This document shows, piece after piece, positions 7,802 to 12,487 of a DNA stretch of 12,583 bases. Both the position numbers and the translations under genes were made by a program. The first letter of the stretch is position 1. The number at the start of each line of letters is the position of its first letter. This DNA is from Thermococcus sp. (lineage in GTDB: Archaea > Methanobacteriota_B > Thermococci > Thermococcales > Thermococcaceae). The notes under the pieces are model-generated. The model was given only the letters and a program-made list of their open reading frames with translations, had not been told where the DNA came from and ran no database searches. The stretch spans positions 1 through 12,583 of the forward strand of contig JALTMZ010000165.1 in NCBI GenBank assembly GCA_027001105.1. The letters run 5' to 3'.

Positions 7802-8263
7802 ATGGAAAAGAGAAGGCTTTATCGTTCAAAGGATGAGAAAATATTTTTGGGAGTTTTGGGAGGGATAGCAAAATACCTTGATGTTGATCCTACACTTGTG
7901 AGGATAATCTATGTTATCCTGCTTTTTTTGGCTCCTGTAACAGCGATACTGATGTATTTCGCCTTGGCCCTCATAATGCCGGAAGAGCCTGAGGAGGAGA
8001 TATCCCTTGATAAGCTTCCTGAAAAAGCAGAAAAAATTGCAAAAGAGATTGATAAAACACTGACACAAGCATTTAGCTCTAAAAAGCCAACTCCAACGGT
8101 TAAAGATCACAACAATGAGAAACTCCTTGCATTAATTTTAATAATTCTCGGTGGAGTTCTGATTTTAAGAAAGATAGCTCCCTTCATGTGGTATCTTCAA
8201 GGTGATATTCTCTTAGCAGTCTTGCTGCTCCTATTTGGAATATACTTGCTGATCAGGGGGTGA
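7802..8263 (+). CDS. PspC-domain membrane protein
   Basis: This 153-residue protein begins with a canonical PspC domain (residues 4-62): a basic N-terminus RRLYRSKDEKIFLGVLGGIAKYLDVDPTLVR (motif GVLGGIAKYLDVDP at 17-30), then a membrane helix (about 34-58) ending in MPEEPEEE. A charged helical linker (65-105) leads to two more hydrophobic segments (about 106-123 and 134-151), similar to the small membrane domain found in LiaF-like proteins. PspC proteins sense or transmit envelope stress; no PspA or LiaR homologue is in this window. GGGGGTAGG lies just before the ATG. Four base pairs separate it from the next gene, with which it likely forms one sensor unit. Confidence 0.88.
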   Translation: MEKRRLYRSKDEKIFLGVLGGIAKYLDVDPTLVRIIYVILLFLAPVTAILMYFALALIMPEEPEEEISLDKLPEKAEKIAKEIDKTLTQAFSSKKPTPTVKDHNNEKLLALILIILGGVLILRKIAPFMWYLQGDILLAVLLLLFGIYLLIRG

Positions 8264-8267
8264 AAAC

Positions 8268-9137
8268 ATGGGGAGAACACTTGGACTTTTCCTTTTGTTC
8301 CTTGGAGCATTAATACTCCTCAAAAAGTTCTACCCTGAGACGCTAACATATTTAGCCCCCTATGCTCATTACATAAAGGCATCATTTTGGGGTGTTGCTC
8401 TTATCTGCTTTGGTTTATACCTGCTCTCAAAGAACAAAGCTTGGAGAACTACAATTAGTGCAATCTTTATTCTCTATGTTGCCCTTTACTTAGTAGTTCC
8501 TGATGTCGGCACCACCTCTTGGTACTCGATAGGAGATTGGTTTGGGGAGAAAATTGAGGGAGAGATGCATACCGTTGGAGAATTCCAAGCCTCTGAGCTG
8601 ATTATTCAAGACATTGTAGCTGAAGCTAAAATAATAAGCACTGATGGAAACTCAATAAAAGTCACATCAAATCTTCCTGTTCAGGCAGAAATAAGCGGAG
8701 ATGCCCTTATTCTGAAATGCACTGAGGTATGCAACAGATATAAAAACGGCAAGCTGATCGTGGAGGTAGGCAAAGGACTCTTAAAAAGCCTTGAAATAAG
8801 CGACACTGTTGGGGATTATTACATAAATCTCGAAGACAGCCTAAGCCAAATCACGATAAAAAACACCGTTGGAAGATTCAGCATCTCACAAATGAGAAGT
8901 GAGGAACTCTATCTGAGCGACTTCGTTGGGGATTTCAACATAGAGATTGAGGATTGCTCTCAGGTTACCATAGAAGATGGAATCGGCGATGTAACAATTG
9001 ATGTACCATCAGAATATAAAGTTGTACCTATCATAAGGGACTCCGCAACAAAACTTGAGATTAACTCCAATGAAAGCGGCACAAAAACATTAAAGCTGAT
9101 AGTTGACAGCGTAATAGGAAGAATAAAAGTGAGCTGA
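8268..9137 (+). CDS. Membrane protein with repeated beta 'toastrack'-like domain
   Basis: This 289-residue protein has three membrane segments (residues about 4-20, 36-54 and 61-78) and then a beta-rich domain from about 105 to the end. The domain contains a periodic motif of strand, (D/N)-x-(V/I)-G, strand: LEISDTVGDYYINLE (175-189), ITIKNTVGRFSISQM (195-209), LYLSDFVGDFNIEIE (214-228), VTIEDGIGDVTIDVP (233-247) and a terminal LIVDSVIGRIKVS (277-289), with an earlier degenerate copy at 111-125. Spacing is 19-20 residues. This resembles the toastrack/LiaF C-terminal (DUF4097-type) beta domains that accompany PspC. The start follows GGGGTGA and lies 4 bp after the PspC gene. Two Cys (151, 155) lie in the beta domain. 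Which side of the membrane the domain faces is not certain. Confidence 0.8.
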   Translation: MGRTLGLFLLFLGALILLKKFYPETLTYLAPYAHYIKASFWGVALICFGLYLLSKNKAWRTTISAIFILYVALYLVVPDVGTTSWYSIGDWFGEKIEGEMHTVGEFQASELIIQDIVAEAKIISTDGNSIKVTSNLPVQAEISGDALILKCTEVCNRYKNGKLIVEVGKGLLKSLEISDTVGDYYINLEDSLSQITIKNTVGRFSISQMRSEELYLSDFVGDFNIEIEDCSQVTIEDGIGDVTIDVPSEYKVVPIIRDSATKLEINSNESGTKTLKLIVDSVIGRIKVS

Positions 9138-9142
9138 GAGAA

Positions 9143-10033
9143 ATGGAGAGGTGGAAGATAATAAAAGCCTTCACACTTGGACCTTTGCTTGAGGTTACGA
9201 TTCCAAAACCTGGCAATGTAAACCGCTTTAGAGATTTCGGGGATTTAACTCTCTATCATTTTCTCTTTGGAAACGTCGCCATTATCGATATCCTTTACGA
9301 GGCAACGGAGGTTGGCAGATTAATTAAGAAGGGAGATTATCAGCTAAGTGAGGCCAATATCGGAGAAATGATCAAAAGAGCAGTCCAAAATGCAAAAGCT
9401 GCACAAGATGCAAATCCCAATTTTGGCATAATAACACTGGAGATTCCTCTTGTAATTGCTTTAACCATCTCAAAAAACCTTTATGATGCCAGAGAACTTG
9501 TAAAAAGGTTAATTGAACGTTCAACAGTTAGAGACACAATGGAGTTCTACAAGGCAATAAGAATCGCCAATCCCAAAGGAATAAAGAGTGGGGTTAAATA
9601 TGATGTTTATGATGAGAATGTTTTTGATGAGCTTTTCAGAGACAGAATCAATCTCAAACGCTTAGCTGAAATAAGCTGTGAAAGAGAGCTTATTTTTTGT
9701 GAATGGTTAAGTGGGTATGAACTCAGTTACAAGACATTCCTGAGGCTCAAAGAATTAACCAAGGAATTCAGCCTTGAAGAAGCTGTTTTAAATGCGTTTA
9801 TTGAACTCTTAGCATCAACCCCAGACACCCTTATTATCAGAAAAGCTGGAAAGACTGAGGCCGAACTTATAATGAGGAAGGCAAGAGAAACACTGGATGG
9901 AACTCTCAGTATCGATGAACTGGATAAATTCCTAAGGGAAAAAGGGGATTTAAGGAATCCCGGGAGTTTGGCGGATATAACGGCAATTGCTTTGAGTCTG
10001 CTGATTCTTGATGGCTACAAACTTAATCTTTAA
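9143..10033 (+). CDS. CitG/MdcB-family triphosphoribosyl-dephospho-CoA synthase homologue
   Basis: This 296-residue protein shows the COG1767 (CitG) family motifs: KPGNV (22-26), NPNFGI (91-96), the [12 protein letters not shown] segment (225-236) and [10 protein letters not shown] (272-281). Characterised members use ATP and dephospho-CoA to make the triphosphoribosyl precursor of the citrate or malonate lyase acyl-carrier prosthetic group. No lyase gene is in this window, and archaeal members are generally found without one, so the substrate here is probably a different nucleotide or ribosyl acceptor; members in C1-metabolising organisms have been linked to methanopterin-type cofactors. It starts 5 bp after the toastrack gene (weak GAGAG ribosome site) and is probably in the same operon. 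Its 3' end overlaps the convergent DUF1884 gene by 11 bp. Confidence 0.82.
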
Positions 10034-10307
10034 TTACCCTTATCCTCTTTGCTCCACCCAATCCAATTCCAAGCATCTTGGAATCTATAACGACAGCGTC
10101 CCTACCAAGCTCTTCAAGGACTCTTACTTTTAAGCCTGAAACCTCTGTAATTCTCTCATCCCCACCAAATTCCTCATCCACCTGAGCCTTTAAGAACTCA
10201 TAGGCTTCCTTTCCAAAGAGAACAATATCAGGTTCAAAACCGTCCATTTTGAGCTCATTGGCTTTTTCCTCAACTGCACTTAGGATTCTAATTAAATCTC
10301 CCCTCAT
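10023..10307 (-). CDS. DUF1884 protein, A-domain (Family 4) encapsulin-like
   Basis: This 94-residue protein matches, from memory, the Thermococcales DUF1884 family and P. furiosus PF0899 (structure 2PK8): RGDLIRIL near the N-terminus, [22 protein letters not shown] (parts at 18-39), then a strand/turn region [18 protein letters not shown] and the C-terminal [10 protein letters not shown]. That structure was recognised as an isolated A-domain of the HK97 capsid fold, and the family was proposed as Family 4 encapsulins associated with enzymes such as GAPDH, DeoC or sulfhydrogenase. Whether any of these assembles into a shell is not established to my knowledge. The ATG at 10307 follows GGTGA by five bases. 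The gene lies 63 bp downstream of an OsmC gene on the same strand but also has a plausible promoter of its own. Confidence 0.82.
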
Positions 10308-10341: not shown

Positions 10342-10350
10342 CATTTAAAG
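10342..10350 (-). promoter_or_regulatory. TATA box for the DUF1884 gene
   Basis: Minus-strand CTTTAAATG with an A-rich BRE-like GAAAAA just upstream is centred 38-39 bp before the DUF1884 ATG, the same spacing seen for the OsmC and C26 genes here. The gene can therefore be expressed apart from OsmC, though read-through is not excluded because no T-tract separates the two. Confidence 0.5.
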
Positions 10351-10370
10351 TTTTTCATACTTGTAAAACT

Positions 10371-10766
10371 TCATTCATTGATAATTTCAAACGTGTATGA
10401 AACTTCAGTTCCGCTGAGCTTCAAATGTGCCGAAGCTGAGCAATATTTGCTTTGGCTAAGTTCTATTGCTCGTTTAGCCTTTTCTGGCTTTACATCTCCA
10501 TAGATCTTATAGTGGATGTGAACCTTTTTGTAAATCCTCGGATGTTCTTCCCTCCTTTCCCCGCTTATCTCAATTTCGAGGTCTTTGATTGGTTCTCTCA
10601 TTTTCTGCAGGATCATGACAACATCAATGGCTGTACATCCAGCAACAGCTAAGAGAAGGGTTCTCATTGGAGAGATGCCCTTTTCTCCAAAGATTATTTT
10701 TCCTCCTTCTTCAACACTTGCCTCAAATTTTTCATTCCCAAGCCATCTAACTTTCCCTGTTATCAT
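10371..10766 (-). CDS. OsmC/Ohr-family thiol peroxidase-like protein
   Basis: This 131-residue protein has the OsmC-family layout of YhfA-type members: SPMRTLLLAVAGCTAIDVVMIL (Cys44 within 32-53) and SQSKYCSASAHL (Cys109). The two cysteines form the redox pair that reduces organic hydroperoxides in characterised OsmC/Ohr enzymes, and both are present. The conserved Glu/Arg near the active site may be Glu28 and Arg35, judged by position only. A KMREPIKDLEIEISGERREEHP segment is typical of the family. The start at 10766 follows GGGTGGT. It shares a divergent promoter region with the radical SAM gene and lies directly upstream of the DUF1884 gene on the same strand, making it a candidate partner or cargo of that protein; this is inference from position only. 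Confidence 0.87.
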   Translation of the reverse strand: MITGKVRWLGNEKFEASVEEGGKIIFGEKGISPMRTLLLAVAGCTAIDVVMILQKMREPIKDLEIEISGERREEHPRIYKKVHIHYKIYGDVKPEKAKRAIELSQSKYCSASAHLKLSGTEVSYTFEIINE

Positions 10767-10798
10767 TTTACCACCCGGATATCAATTAGAGAAAATTC

Positions 10799-10808
10799 TT
10801 TTTAAATA
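10799..10808. promoter_or_regulatory. Shared bidirectional TATA element (OsmC / radical SAM)
   Basis: TTTTTAAATA reads as TATTTAAAAA on the other strand. It is centred 38 bp from the OsmC ATG on the minus strand and 24-25 bp from the radical SAM ATG on the plus strand. A-rich flanks that could serve as BRE lie on both sides. The only good TATA candidate in the 61-bp gap appears to serve both genes. Confidence 0.5.
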
Positions 10809-10827
10809 GCTTTGTAAACTTTATCTC

Positions 10828-11670
10828 ATGTATATACGACCCTTCGATCCATGGAAATCAAAGCTCTGCACATGTCCCTTTAAATATACACTAAACGTTT
10901 ATACAGGTTGCGATCATGCTTGTATTTACTGCTACATAACAGCTTACATTCCCAAAGCTTTTAAGGTTAGAATTAAAGAGAACCTCCTTCTTAATCTTGA
11001 GAAAGAGCTTAGAAAATTTGATAAGAGGTTCATAGTCTCACTCTCCTATTCCTCCGATCCCTATCCAACAATTGAGAGGCAGTTAGGCATTACACGAAAA
11101 GTTCTCCAGCTCTTCAAAAGATACAACATAAGGTGCATGATCTTAACAAAATCAGATATTTTTGAGCGTGATTTGGACATTCTAAAAGAACTCAAATGCG
11201 CCGTAGGGATAACGGTGACAACAATAGATGAAGAAAAGGCTAAGGCATTGGAACCAAATGCTCCCTCACCTAAAGACAGAATAAAAGCTCTAAGAAAAGC
11301 AAAAAAGAGCGGAATTCCAGTCTATGCAAGGATAGACCCGATAATACCATTTTACACATGGGAAGATTTTGAGGAAACTGTCAGTGCACTGAGCTTTGTT
11401 TCACATATAACAGTTTCTACTCTGAAGCTCAGACCAGATTCATGGAAAAGAATGAAAGCAAAATTCCCAGAGCTCATGAAAAAGCTTGAGCCATTATATA
11501 GGAGGGGAGAAAGAATTGGTGGATACTATTACCTCCCCAAAGACTTCAGAATGAAAATCTTAGAGGAGGCAAGGAAGATCATTGAAGAGAAAGGGATTAC
11601 ATTCGGCTCATGTAGAGAGGGGTATTATTCTTACCCTACCTGTGATGGCTCTCACTTAGTTCCTCTATAA
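10828..11670 (+). CDS. Radical SAM protein, SplB-like (COG1533)
   Basis: This 280-residue protein has the radical SAM [4Fe-4S] motif CDHACIYC (Cys28, Cys32, Cys35) preceded by NVYTG, followed by SLSYSSDPYP (71-80), GITVTTIDE and a PVYARIDPIIP strand, as in the group related to spore photoproduct lyase and annotated as SplB/COG1533. The function of such archaeal members is unknown; the relationship to DNA photoproduct repair is distant. Additional cysteines occur as C14-T-C16 near the N-terminus and at 262 and 272 near the C-terminus, which could bind a second metal centre. No ribosome site precedes the ATG, and the TATA box lies 24-25 bp before it, so the mRNA is probably leaderless. The 3' end overlaps the convergent C26-like gene by 35 bp. 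Confidence 0.87.
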   Translation: MYIRPFDPWKSKLCTCPFKYTLNVYTGCDHACIYCYITAYIPKAFKVRIKENLLLNLEKELRKFDKRFIVSLSYSSDPYPTIERQLGITRKVLQLFKRYNIRCMILTKSDIFERDLDILKELKCAVGITVTTIDEEKAKALEPNAPSPKDRIKALRKAKKSGIPVYARIDPIIPFYTWEDFEETVSALSFVSHITVSTLKLRPDSWKRMKAKFPELMKKLEPLYRRGERIGGYYYLPKDFRMKILEEARKIIEEKGITFGSCREGYYSYPTCDGSHLVPL

Positions 11671-12487
11671 TTTCTTCAACTATTTCTTCTGCCATTTTTC
11701 CTGTTTCACTTTCTTGTCTTATAATTTCCTCCTTTATTTCTTCCCTGATTTTGCATTTCTTATACTCAAGAGCTTTTTCGACTAAGGCATCAAAGAGGGG
11801 CTGCATTTCATCCATGTATTCTGCAAGCCACTGAACACCAATGGCAAACTTCTCCGGAATCTCAATACCCTCAATTATACCGTCATCAGCATAGGCAACT
11901 GGTTTAATGCCATCTCCAAGCTTTCTAATAGCCTGATGATGGAAGCTGTTAACGCCGATAAAAACTTCATTTGTCCCTTCAATGTTCAGCTTTTCCTTTA
12001 GAATTTCAAACAGCATTGAATTGGTTTTTATCCTGACTTCATGAACTTTACAGCTGGGATGAACTAAGAATCTCCCCCCACTTGTCCAGTCATGCTTTAT
12101 AGCCTTTGGAATTTCACTAACGACATCTTGATAGAGGGTACCTCCAAGGGCAACGTTTAGGGCTTGGGCACCTCTCCCAATTCCCAAGATGGGGAGGTTC
12201 TTTTCAAGAGCTGCTCTAATTAAAGTAAGCTCAAATTCATCCCTCTGAACATCTAAATTCCTTATTTTTGTCGTCAGCTCTCCCCCATAATATTTAGGAT
12301 GAATGTCTGGTCCTTCTGGAAAAATCAAACCATCCATTGCCTCAAGGACATCTGTTATTCCAACGAGGGGAGGAATTGCTACGGGTATTCCCCCAGCTTT
12401 TTTAATTCTTTTAACATACATATCATTTATTGTCAGAGCACCCGTTTCCCAGTCGAATTGTGCCACAATGCCTATAATGGGTTTCAT
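11636..12487 (-). CDS. Class I amidotransferase-like (peptidase C26/PuuD family) protein lacking catalytic Cys and His
   Basis: This 283-residue protein follows the gamma-glutamyl-GABA hydrolase (PuuD) family from end to end: MKPIIGI start, AGGIPVAIPP, DGLIFPEGPDIHPKYYGG, PILGIGRGAQALNVALGGTLYQD (parts at 99-121), VNSFHHQA (179-186), DGIIEGIE and GVQW (217-220). The nucleophile elbow normally reads GICRG; here it is GIGRG, with Gly104 encoded by GGG. The HPE motif after GVQW is LAE, so His is Leu221 while Glu223 remains. The usual PGGGD is PEGPD. The protein therefore cannot use the family's hydrolytic mechanism and is likely a binding or regulatory protein. A charged, Glu-rich helical tail (243-283) follows the domain. 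The ATG follows GGTGGTGT, and the reading frame is intact, arguing against a pseudogene. Confidence 0.85.
   Translation of the reverse strand: MKPIIGIVAQFDWETGALTINDMYVKRIKKAGGIPVAIPPLVGITDVLEAMDGLIFPEGPDIHPKYYGGELTTKIRNLDVQRDEFELTLIRAALEKNLPILGIGRGAQALNVALGGTLYQDVVSEIPKAIKHDWTSGGRFLVHPSCKVHEVRIKTNSMLFEILKEKLNIEGTNEVFIGVNSFHHQAIRKLGDGIKPVAYADDGIIEGIEIPEKFAIGVQWLAEYMDEMQPLFDALVEKALEYKKCKIREEIKEEIIRQESETGKMAEEIVEEIIEELSESHHR

Follow-up and report, generated by a model that had tools for sequence, protein, structure and literature searches.

Are an A-domain encapsulin-like protein and the enzyme encoded next to it working partners, or have their genes remained neighbours mostly by descent? This question is raised by the contig JALTMZ010000165.1 of a Thermococcus sp. 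(12,583 nt, here called the window), which is contig C165 of a 1.52-Mb draft genome with a completeness of 80.1%. It encodes a 94-aa A-domain protein, termed 4A in the following, and a protein of the OsmC family directly upstream. Family 4 of the encapsulins is poorly understood, and the evidence published on its enzyme partners consists largely of gene position. The family was defined by the domain PF08967 and divided into 4A, 4B, and 4C (Andreas & Giessen 2021, PMC8346489), and that paper lists four enzyme partners, i.e. NiFe sulfhydrogenase and OsmC for 4A, and GAPDH and DeoC for 4B. The suggestion of the first-pass annotation that an association with OsmC had not been described was therefore rejected. 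The OsmC/4A pairing is already known, and the present analysis adds, as a modest novelty, a comparison of how stable the gene joints are, together with a control based on Family 4B. The reading that we prefer, with a probability of roughly 60%, is that 4A is an ordinary Family 4A protein, likely self-associating and with its own promoter, and that its adjacency to OsmC is mostly inherited gene order and not an obligate enzyme-shell operon.

Family and fold of the 94-aa protein

The 94-aa protein scores 162.8 bits with the NCBIfam model of Family 4A (NF041190, encap_f4a; cut-off 90) and 111.5 bits with the Pfam model PF08967 (ENCP4; cut-off 31.4). The NCBIfam models of 4B and 4C give 43.7 and 20.7 bits, respectively, both below the cut-off of 90. 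By sequence, the PDB entry 2pk8 (PF0899) is matched over residues 2-93 with an E-value of 3.9e-31, and the protein is 97% identical to an entry from Thermococcus barophilus and 89% identical to one from T. paralvinellae, its relatives being Thermococcaceae. The size fits Family 4A, the members of which have about 100 aa and consist of the A-domain alone, the remainder of the HK97 fold being absent. A monomer model calculated with AlphaFold2 (AF2; predicted local distance difference test, pLDDT, 91.9) aligns over residues 1-93 with the structure 2pk8 and over residues 2-93 with residues 250-383 of HK97 gp5 (1ohg). It is very improbable that this likeness is a mere common alpha/beta arrangement in a protein unrelated to HK97 capsids. 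Of the 94 genomes surveyed from the order, 88 contain a match above the cut-off of the 4A model, with a single copy in each, compared with 0 of 14 control genomes, and the match can therefore not be ascribed to chance. Hence, 4A is an ordinary Family 4A protein of the Thermococcaceae with a stand-alone HK97 A-domain. The first-pass annotation had likened it to DUF1884/PF0899 and to the HK97 A-domain, and both the family and the predicted fold bear this out.

In comparison with the A-domains of HK97 gp5 and of Family 1 encapsulins, every other capsid domain is absent from 4A, and a shell is unproven. According to PMC8346489, self-assembly of Family 4 proteins into facets or larger bodies is a hypothesis, 2PK8 crystallised as a dimer, and the two helices of the A-domain make the main subunit contact within a facet. 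Helix 1 is the least variable part of 4A, with a mean entropy of 0.33 bits in copies linked to OsmC and 0.40 bits in unlinked copies. The values for helix 2 are 0.71 and 1.23 bits, and those for the rest of the protein 0.74 and 1.01 bits, respectively. Because helix 1 is conserved alike in linked and unlinked copies and the helices are the proposed facet contact, 4A most likely associates with itself via its two helices, as a ring or a dimer, and would do the same job wherever its gene sits. Any client of 4A is then likely to be the same, or to belong to a shared pathway, irrespective of whether OsmC, MarC, or the NiFe sulfhydrogenase adjoins.

Searches of PHROGs and of phage records revealed no clear relative of 4A. 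Structure matches in BFVD comprised A0A068EMQ5 (82 aa, Bacillus phage CP-51), A0A127AW84 (128 aa, Bacillus phage SP-15), S5M4U9 (111 aa, Bacillus phage JL), and A0A6J7VQR9 (95 aa), with E-values from 0.0013 to 0.27. These are short, stand-alone phage proteins annotated as uncharacterized, with a predicted fold like that of an isolated HK97 A-domain, and Family 4 may have a viral counterpart in them.

Stability of the gene links around 4A

The neighbourhoods of all 88 4A genes were retrieved from the 94 genomes and the adjoining genes were marked by tblastn; the rows of this survey comprise the genomes with 4A above cut-off, i.e. all but six. A contig scan with the single protein had yielded only seven loci, and the survey is based on the genome-wide search instead. 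The window's OsmC has a match (E ≤ 0.001) in 88 of the 94 genomes, which in some of them is a distant paralogue only. The set with both genes contains 83 genomes; G003, G010, G011, G046, and G066 bear 4A and were excluded because they have no OsmC orthologue. Genes were regarded as linked to 4A within 5 kb for OsmC (observed gaps 42-3090 bp) and within 2.5 kb for CitG (in G037, CitG is about 1.9 kb off). The shared order is C26-rSAM-OsmC-[MarC]-4A-CitG, with rSAM denoting a radical SAM gene and C26 a peptidase C26/glutamine amidotransferase-like gene.

Upstream of 4A (n = 88), OsmC was found together with MarC in 38 genomes and without MarC in 21, MarC without OsmC in 12, and a hydrogenase in 8; the remaining 9 have none of these. 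In G050, just 1197 bp are visible upstream of 4A. We distinguish the genera as g1 to g6, g1 being that of the window and g3 the Pyrococcus group. OsmC is at the 4A locus in 6/6 genomes of g1, 10/10 of g5, 1/1 of g6, and 42/59 of g4. It was not found there in 9/9 genomes of g3, 3/3 of g2, and 17/59 of g4, including T. kodakarensis KOD1; for G010 and G066, less than 800 bp upstream of 4A are on the contig, which bears on the missing OsmC. Unlike in the window, OsmC of KOD1 lies 35 kb from 4A, on the opposite strand. Eight of the nine g3 genomes have a hydrogenase near 4A, a value that includes G008, with several intervening open reading frames (ORFs), and G010, with only a piece of the hydrogenase on the contig. 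Where OsmC was found in this group, it adjoins rSAM away from 4A. The condition that the first-pass annotation had named as refuting its proposal, unrelated neighbours of the A-domain gene in most genomes, thus gives a mixed picture: a same-strand OsmC neighbour is frequent in the order (59 of the 83 genomes with both genes) and was not found at the 4A locus in all genomes of two genera and part of a third.

For comparison, we estimated how often the individual links have changed. The underlying tree was obtained by a quick search on OsmC, rSAM, 4A, and CitG from the same loci of the 88 genomes; it is weakly supported at 26 of 85 inner branches, neither g4 nor g2 forms a single clade, and G046 sits on a long branch. 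Of the 83 genomes, 59 have OsmC linked to 4A and 24 do not, which requires at least 8 changes. A second tree, calculated without the 4A columns, gives the same number, and on its well-supported branches alone five independent genome pairs differ in this link. The OsmC|rSAM adjacency is kept in 83/83 genomes with 0 changes. The 4A|CitG adjacency is kept in 78/87 with one change, the exceptions being nine Pyrococcus-group genomes (G065, the contig of which ends within 4A, is not in this count). An OsmC gene separated from 4A still adjoins rSAM, and outside the Pyrococcus group 4A still adjoins CitG wherever the contig extends that far. Among the three links, OsmC-4A is therefore the least stable: the presumed operon joint breaks, and the divergent OsmC|rSAM and the convergent 4A|CitG pairs hold. 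This suggests that the proximity of OsmC and 4A may reflect inheritance to a greater extent than a fixed functional pairing. The position of 4A beside OsmC would then be mostly the inherited local order, and OsmC would not be a fixed partner.

The frequency of OsmC as a neighbour was rejected as support for the pairing, because the convergent CitG gene is an even more frequent neighbour (78/87). In the published reading, proposed for Family 4 operons including the OsmC type (PMC8346489), OsmC is the dedicated partner of 4A, and the two would form a complex or a small shell in which the peroxidase is protected or its reaction confined. The gene order of many genomes accords with this: OsmC precedes 4A on the same strand in 59 of 83, and in the window it does so directly, with a spacing of 63 bp between the two ORFs. 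The reading has to accommodate a link that was lost or gained on at least 8 occasions, with the links on either side preserved, and a Pyrococcus group in which 4A is near a hydrogenase in 8/9 genomes and OsmC, where found, is by rSAM elsewhere. We regard it as unlikely, though not negligible.

MarC was considered as well. PMC8346489 states that MarC is often upstream of the A-domain gene in loci of the OsmC type. The window resembles this type in the family of its A-domain protein and in the OsmC gene directly upstream on the same strand, and differs from it in having no MarC and a promoter-like element between the two genes. If the membrane protein MarC were the real neighbour partner of 4A, OsmC would be a bystander, and the 12 genomes that have MarC at most 3.5 kb upstream of 4A without the OsmC link, including 3/3 of g2, would be explained. 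No MarC was found near 4A in g1, g3, g5, and g6, its link to 4A is present in 50/85 genomes and changes 8 times (three genomes with less than 1100 bp upstream are omitted), and the OsmC-4A gap of the window has no ORF that would accommodate MarC. We give this possibility very little credence.

Promoter-like element, OsmC protein, and loop 81-85

Upstream regions of 4A were compared with a consensus of the transcription factor B recognition element and TATA box (BRE/TATA), RAAANNTTTAWAW, by scoring its 11 specified positions; random places in the same loci, which are mostly coding, served as background. The element of the window, AAAAACTTTAAAT, matches at 11/11 positions, as do the elements of 6/6 surveyed genomes of g1. 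At least 9/11 matches were found in 56 of the 88 upstream regions, compared with 5.9% of the random places. The fractions are 6/6 for g1, 0/3 for g2, 8/9 for g3, 31/59 for g4, 10/10 for g5, and 1/1 for g6. In the 41 regions with the best position listed, 41-48 nt separate the first nucleotide of the element from the coding start, and it occurs before 4A copies flanked by OsmC, MarC, a hydrogenase, or none of these. At about the position of the ribosome-binding-like motif of the window, GGTG recurs in most of the listed upstream regions outside g3. These matches to the consensus suggest that 4A is probably transcribed from a promoter of its own, a possibility that the first-pass annotation had raised, and they count against the dedicated-partner reading.

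The OsmC protein itself was also characterised. It scores 61.7 bits with PF02566 (cut-off 27.5) and has two cysteines, one in an AGC and one in a KYC motif, so that the same-strand OsmC-family gene with both cysteines was correctly recognised in the first-pass annotation. With the Pfam match and both active-site cysteines, it belongs to the OsmC family. The nearest NCBIfam model is PRK10738, below its cut-off, and relatives in the PDB are 2e8c, 1vla, and 1ml8. Its orthologue in T. kodakarensis is TK0189 (70% identity, the best match in the KOD1 genome), the mass (15.34) and pI (5.85) of the KOD1 protein being equal to the values given for TK0189 in PMC4473059. Among the orthologues, the motif of the second cysteine is present in 82/83 and that of the first in 79/83. 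Canonical Ohr/OsmC peroxidases carry a Glu ten residues ahead of the first cysteine. The window protein differs from them by having a Met, which occupies this position in 79/79 orthologues in which the motif was found, with Lys or Arg adjoining. Inspection by eye of 79 aligned sequences (4 of the 83 were excluded because of stops in the extracted frame) revealed no extra C-terminal tail on OsmC linked to 4A, and the longest tails are on unlinked copies, which is a further point against a dedicated partnership.

In T. gammatolerans, no co-regulation of OsmC and 4A was found: tg1059, which we take to be the OsmC gene of the surveyed locus, was reported to be induced by cadmium, and tg1060-tg1064 are absent from the main text of the report. 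The open-licence literature on Family 4, DUF1884, PF08967, and PF0899, to the extent that its text was available, contained no functional or later experimental study that we could find (PMC12542729 concerns another lineage), and no data on an OsmC-4A interaction were found in it. PF0899 of P. furiosus (2PK8) differs from the window's protein in its assignment to the NiFe sulfhydrogenase type and not to the OsmC type (PMC8346489).

Several results weigh against the reading that we prefer. Residues 81-85 of 4A form a loop that contains GG in 55/59 OsmC-linked copies, compared with 6/28 unlinked copies (22/28 are without GG; G065 is not included). Partner adaptation would also give this raw association, which leans towards the dedicated-partner reading and is inseparable from ancestry; for a phylogenetically controlled test, there were too few independent changes. 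Furthermore, a promoter region common to both genes may keep OsmC and rSAM together, so that this pair is a stricter standard of comparison than any arbitrary neighbour would be. The link of MarC to 4A is as unstable as that of OsmC, so that instability is not special to OsmC. The frequent same-strand position of OsmC upstream of 4A also belongs here, as do the 32 of 88 upstream regions that match the BRE/TATA consensus at just 7 or 8 of 11 positions, and a promoter of its own is compatible with read-through from OsmC. The loop could also be understood if 4A were a partner-switching adaptor, i.e. a vertically inherited, capsid-derived domain with a loop that changes with the enzyme served, GG occurring with an OsmC neighbour and other loop types with a hydrogenase or after OsmC has moved away. 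Shared ancestry may explain all of this, and we see just a slight chance that the adaptor proposal is correct.

Overall, the observation at the locus is confirmed, the pairing was known, and a function is weakly supported. As regards the enzyme association proposed in the first-pass annotation, the A-domain family, the fold, and the OsmC neighbour stood, and the novelty of the pairing did not; the joint with OsmC is the least stable of the three joints OsmC|rSAM, OsmC-4A, and 4A|CitG.

The features are compiled in Table 1. The C26 gene, at the outer edge of the shared block, is present in the retrieved stretches of 67 of the 88 genomes. At 7802-9137, the window contains a PspC-domain gene followed by a gene for 289 aa without a Pfam match, and a PspC homologue is present in the retrieved stretches of 63/88 genomes. 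The divergent OsmC/rSAM pair (window 10371-11670) is, with its conservation in all 83 genomes, a stabler unit than OsmC with 4A.

Table 1. Features of the window and the Family 4B gene of the same draft genome
Feature	Position	Strand	Basis
Family 4A A-domain encapsulin-like protein, 94 aa	10023..10307	-	ATG ORF; NF041190, PF08967, 2pk8, AF2 model
OsmC-family protein, 131 aa, TK0189 orthologue, next upstream of 4A	10371..10766	-	ATG ORF; PF02566
Radical SAM (rSAM) gene, divergent from OsmC, 61 bp between starts	10828..11670	+	PF04055
CitG-family gene, convergent with 4A, 11 bp overlap	9143..10033	+	PF01874
Peptidase C26/glutamine amidotransferase-like gene, after rSAM	11636..12487	-	PF07722
Ribosome-binding-like AAGGTGA, 6-12 nt ahead of the 4A start codon	10313..10319	-	read from sequence
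BRE/TATA-like element AAAAACTTTAAAT, starts 48 nt ahead of the 4A ATG	10343..10355	-	consensus RAAANNTTTAWAW
Family 4B A-domain gene, same draft genome	G000:C87:15272-15541; L126:3270-3551	-	PF08967

Comparison with Family 4B

The draft genome that contains the window also encodes a Family 4B protein, which shares PF08967 with 4A and is 35% identical to it over 86 aligned positions. The GTG start of the 4B gene and the stop of DeoC share 4 bp, i.e. the enzyme and the A-domain protein form a tight pair, in contrast to the 63-bp gap with a promoter-like element that separates 4A from OsmC. As a control, 71 of the 83 genomes with 4B above cut-off were analysed. DeoC adjoins 4B in 63/71 loci (61 identified by ORF and 2 by tblastn), and in the 61 ORF-based loci the gap is estimated at -29 to +7 bp. 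A GAPDH-like gene is present at 77-106 bp from 4B in 7/71 loci, all of them from the Pyrococcus group, and neither neighbour was found in one. The GAPDH label of these seven loci is based on the GAPDH type of the published classification and on a fragment of 79 residues from one locus, which scores 29.6 with the Pfam GAPDH model (cut-off 31.7, just under) and 28.7 with DapB_N (cut-off 25.6, over). PMC8346489 cites a proteomics study of P. furiosus in which GAPDH reportedly forms a stable complex with its A-domain protein, and such a complex would speak for the dedicated-partner reading also in the case of OsmC.

The DeoC-4B pair shows the pattern of a held enzyme link, and the 4A-OsmC pair is, by contrast, unlike a held link. 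Gene position is good evidence for an association of 4B with DeoC and poor evidence for one of 4A with OsmC, and a search for a loaded Family 4 assembly would therefore be better aimed at 4B and DeoC first.
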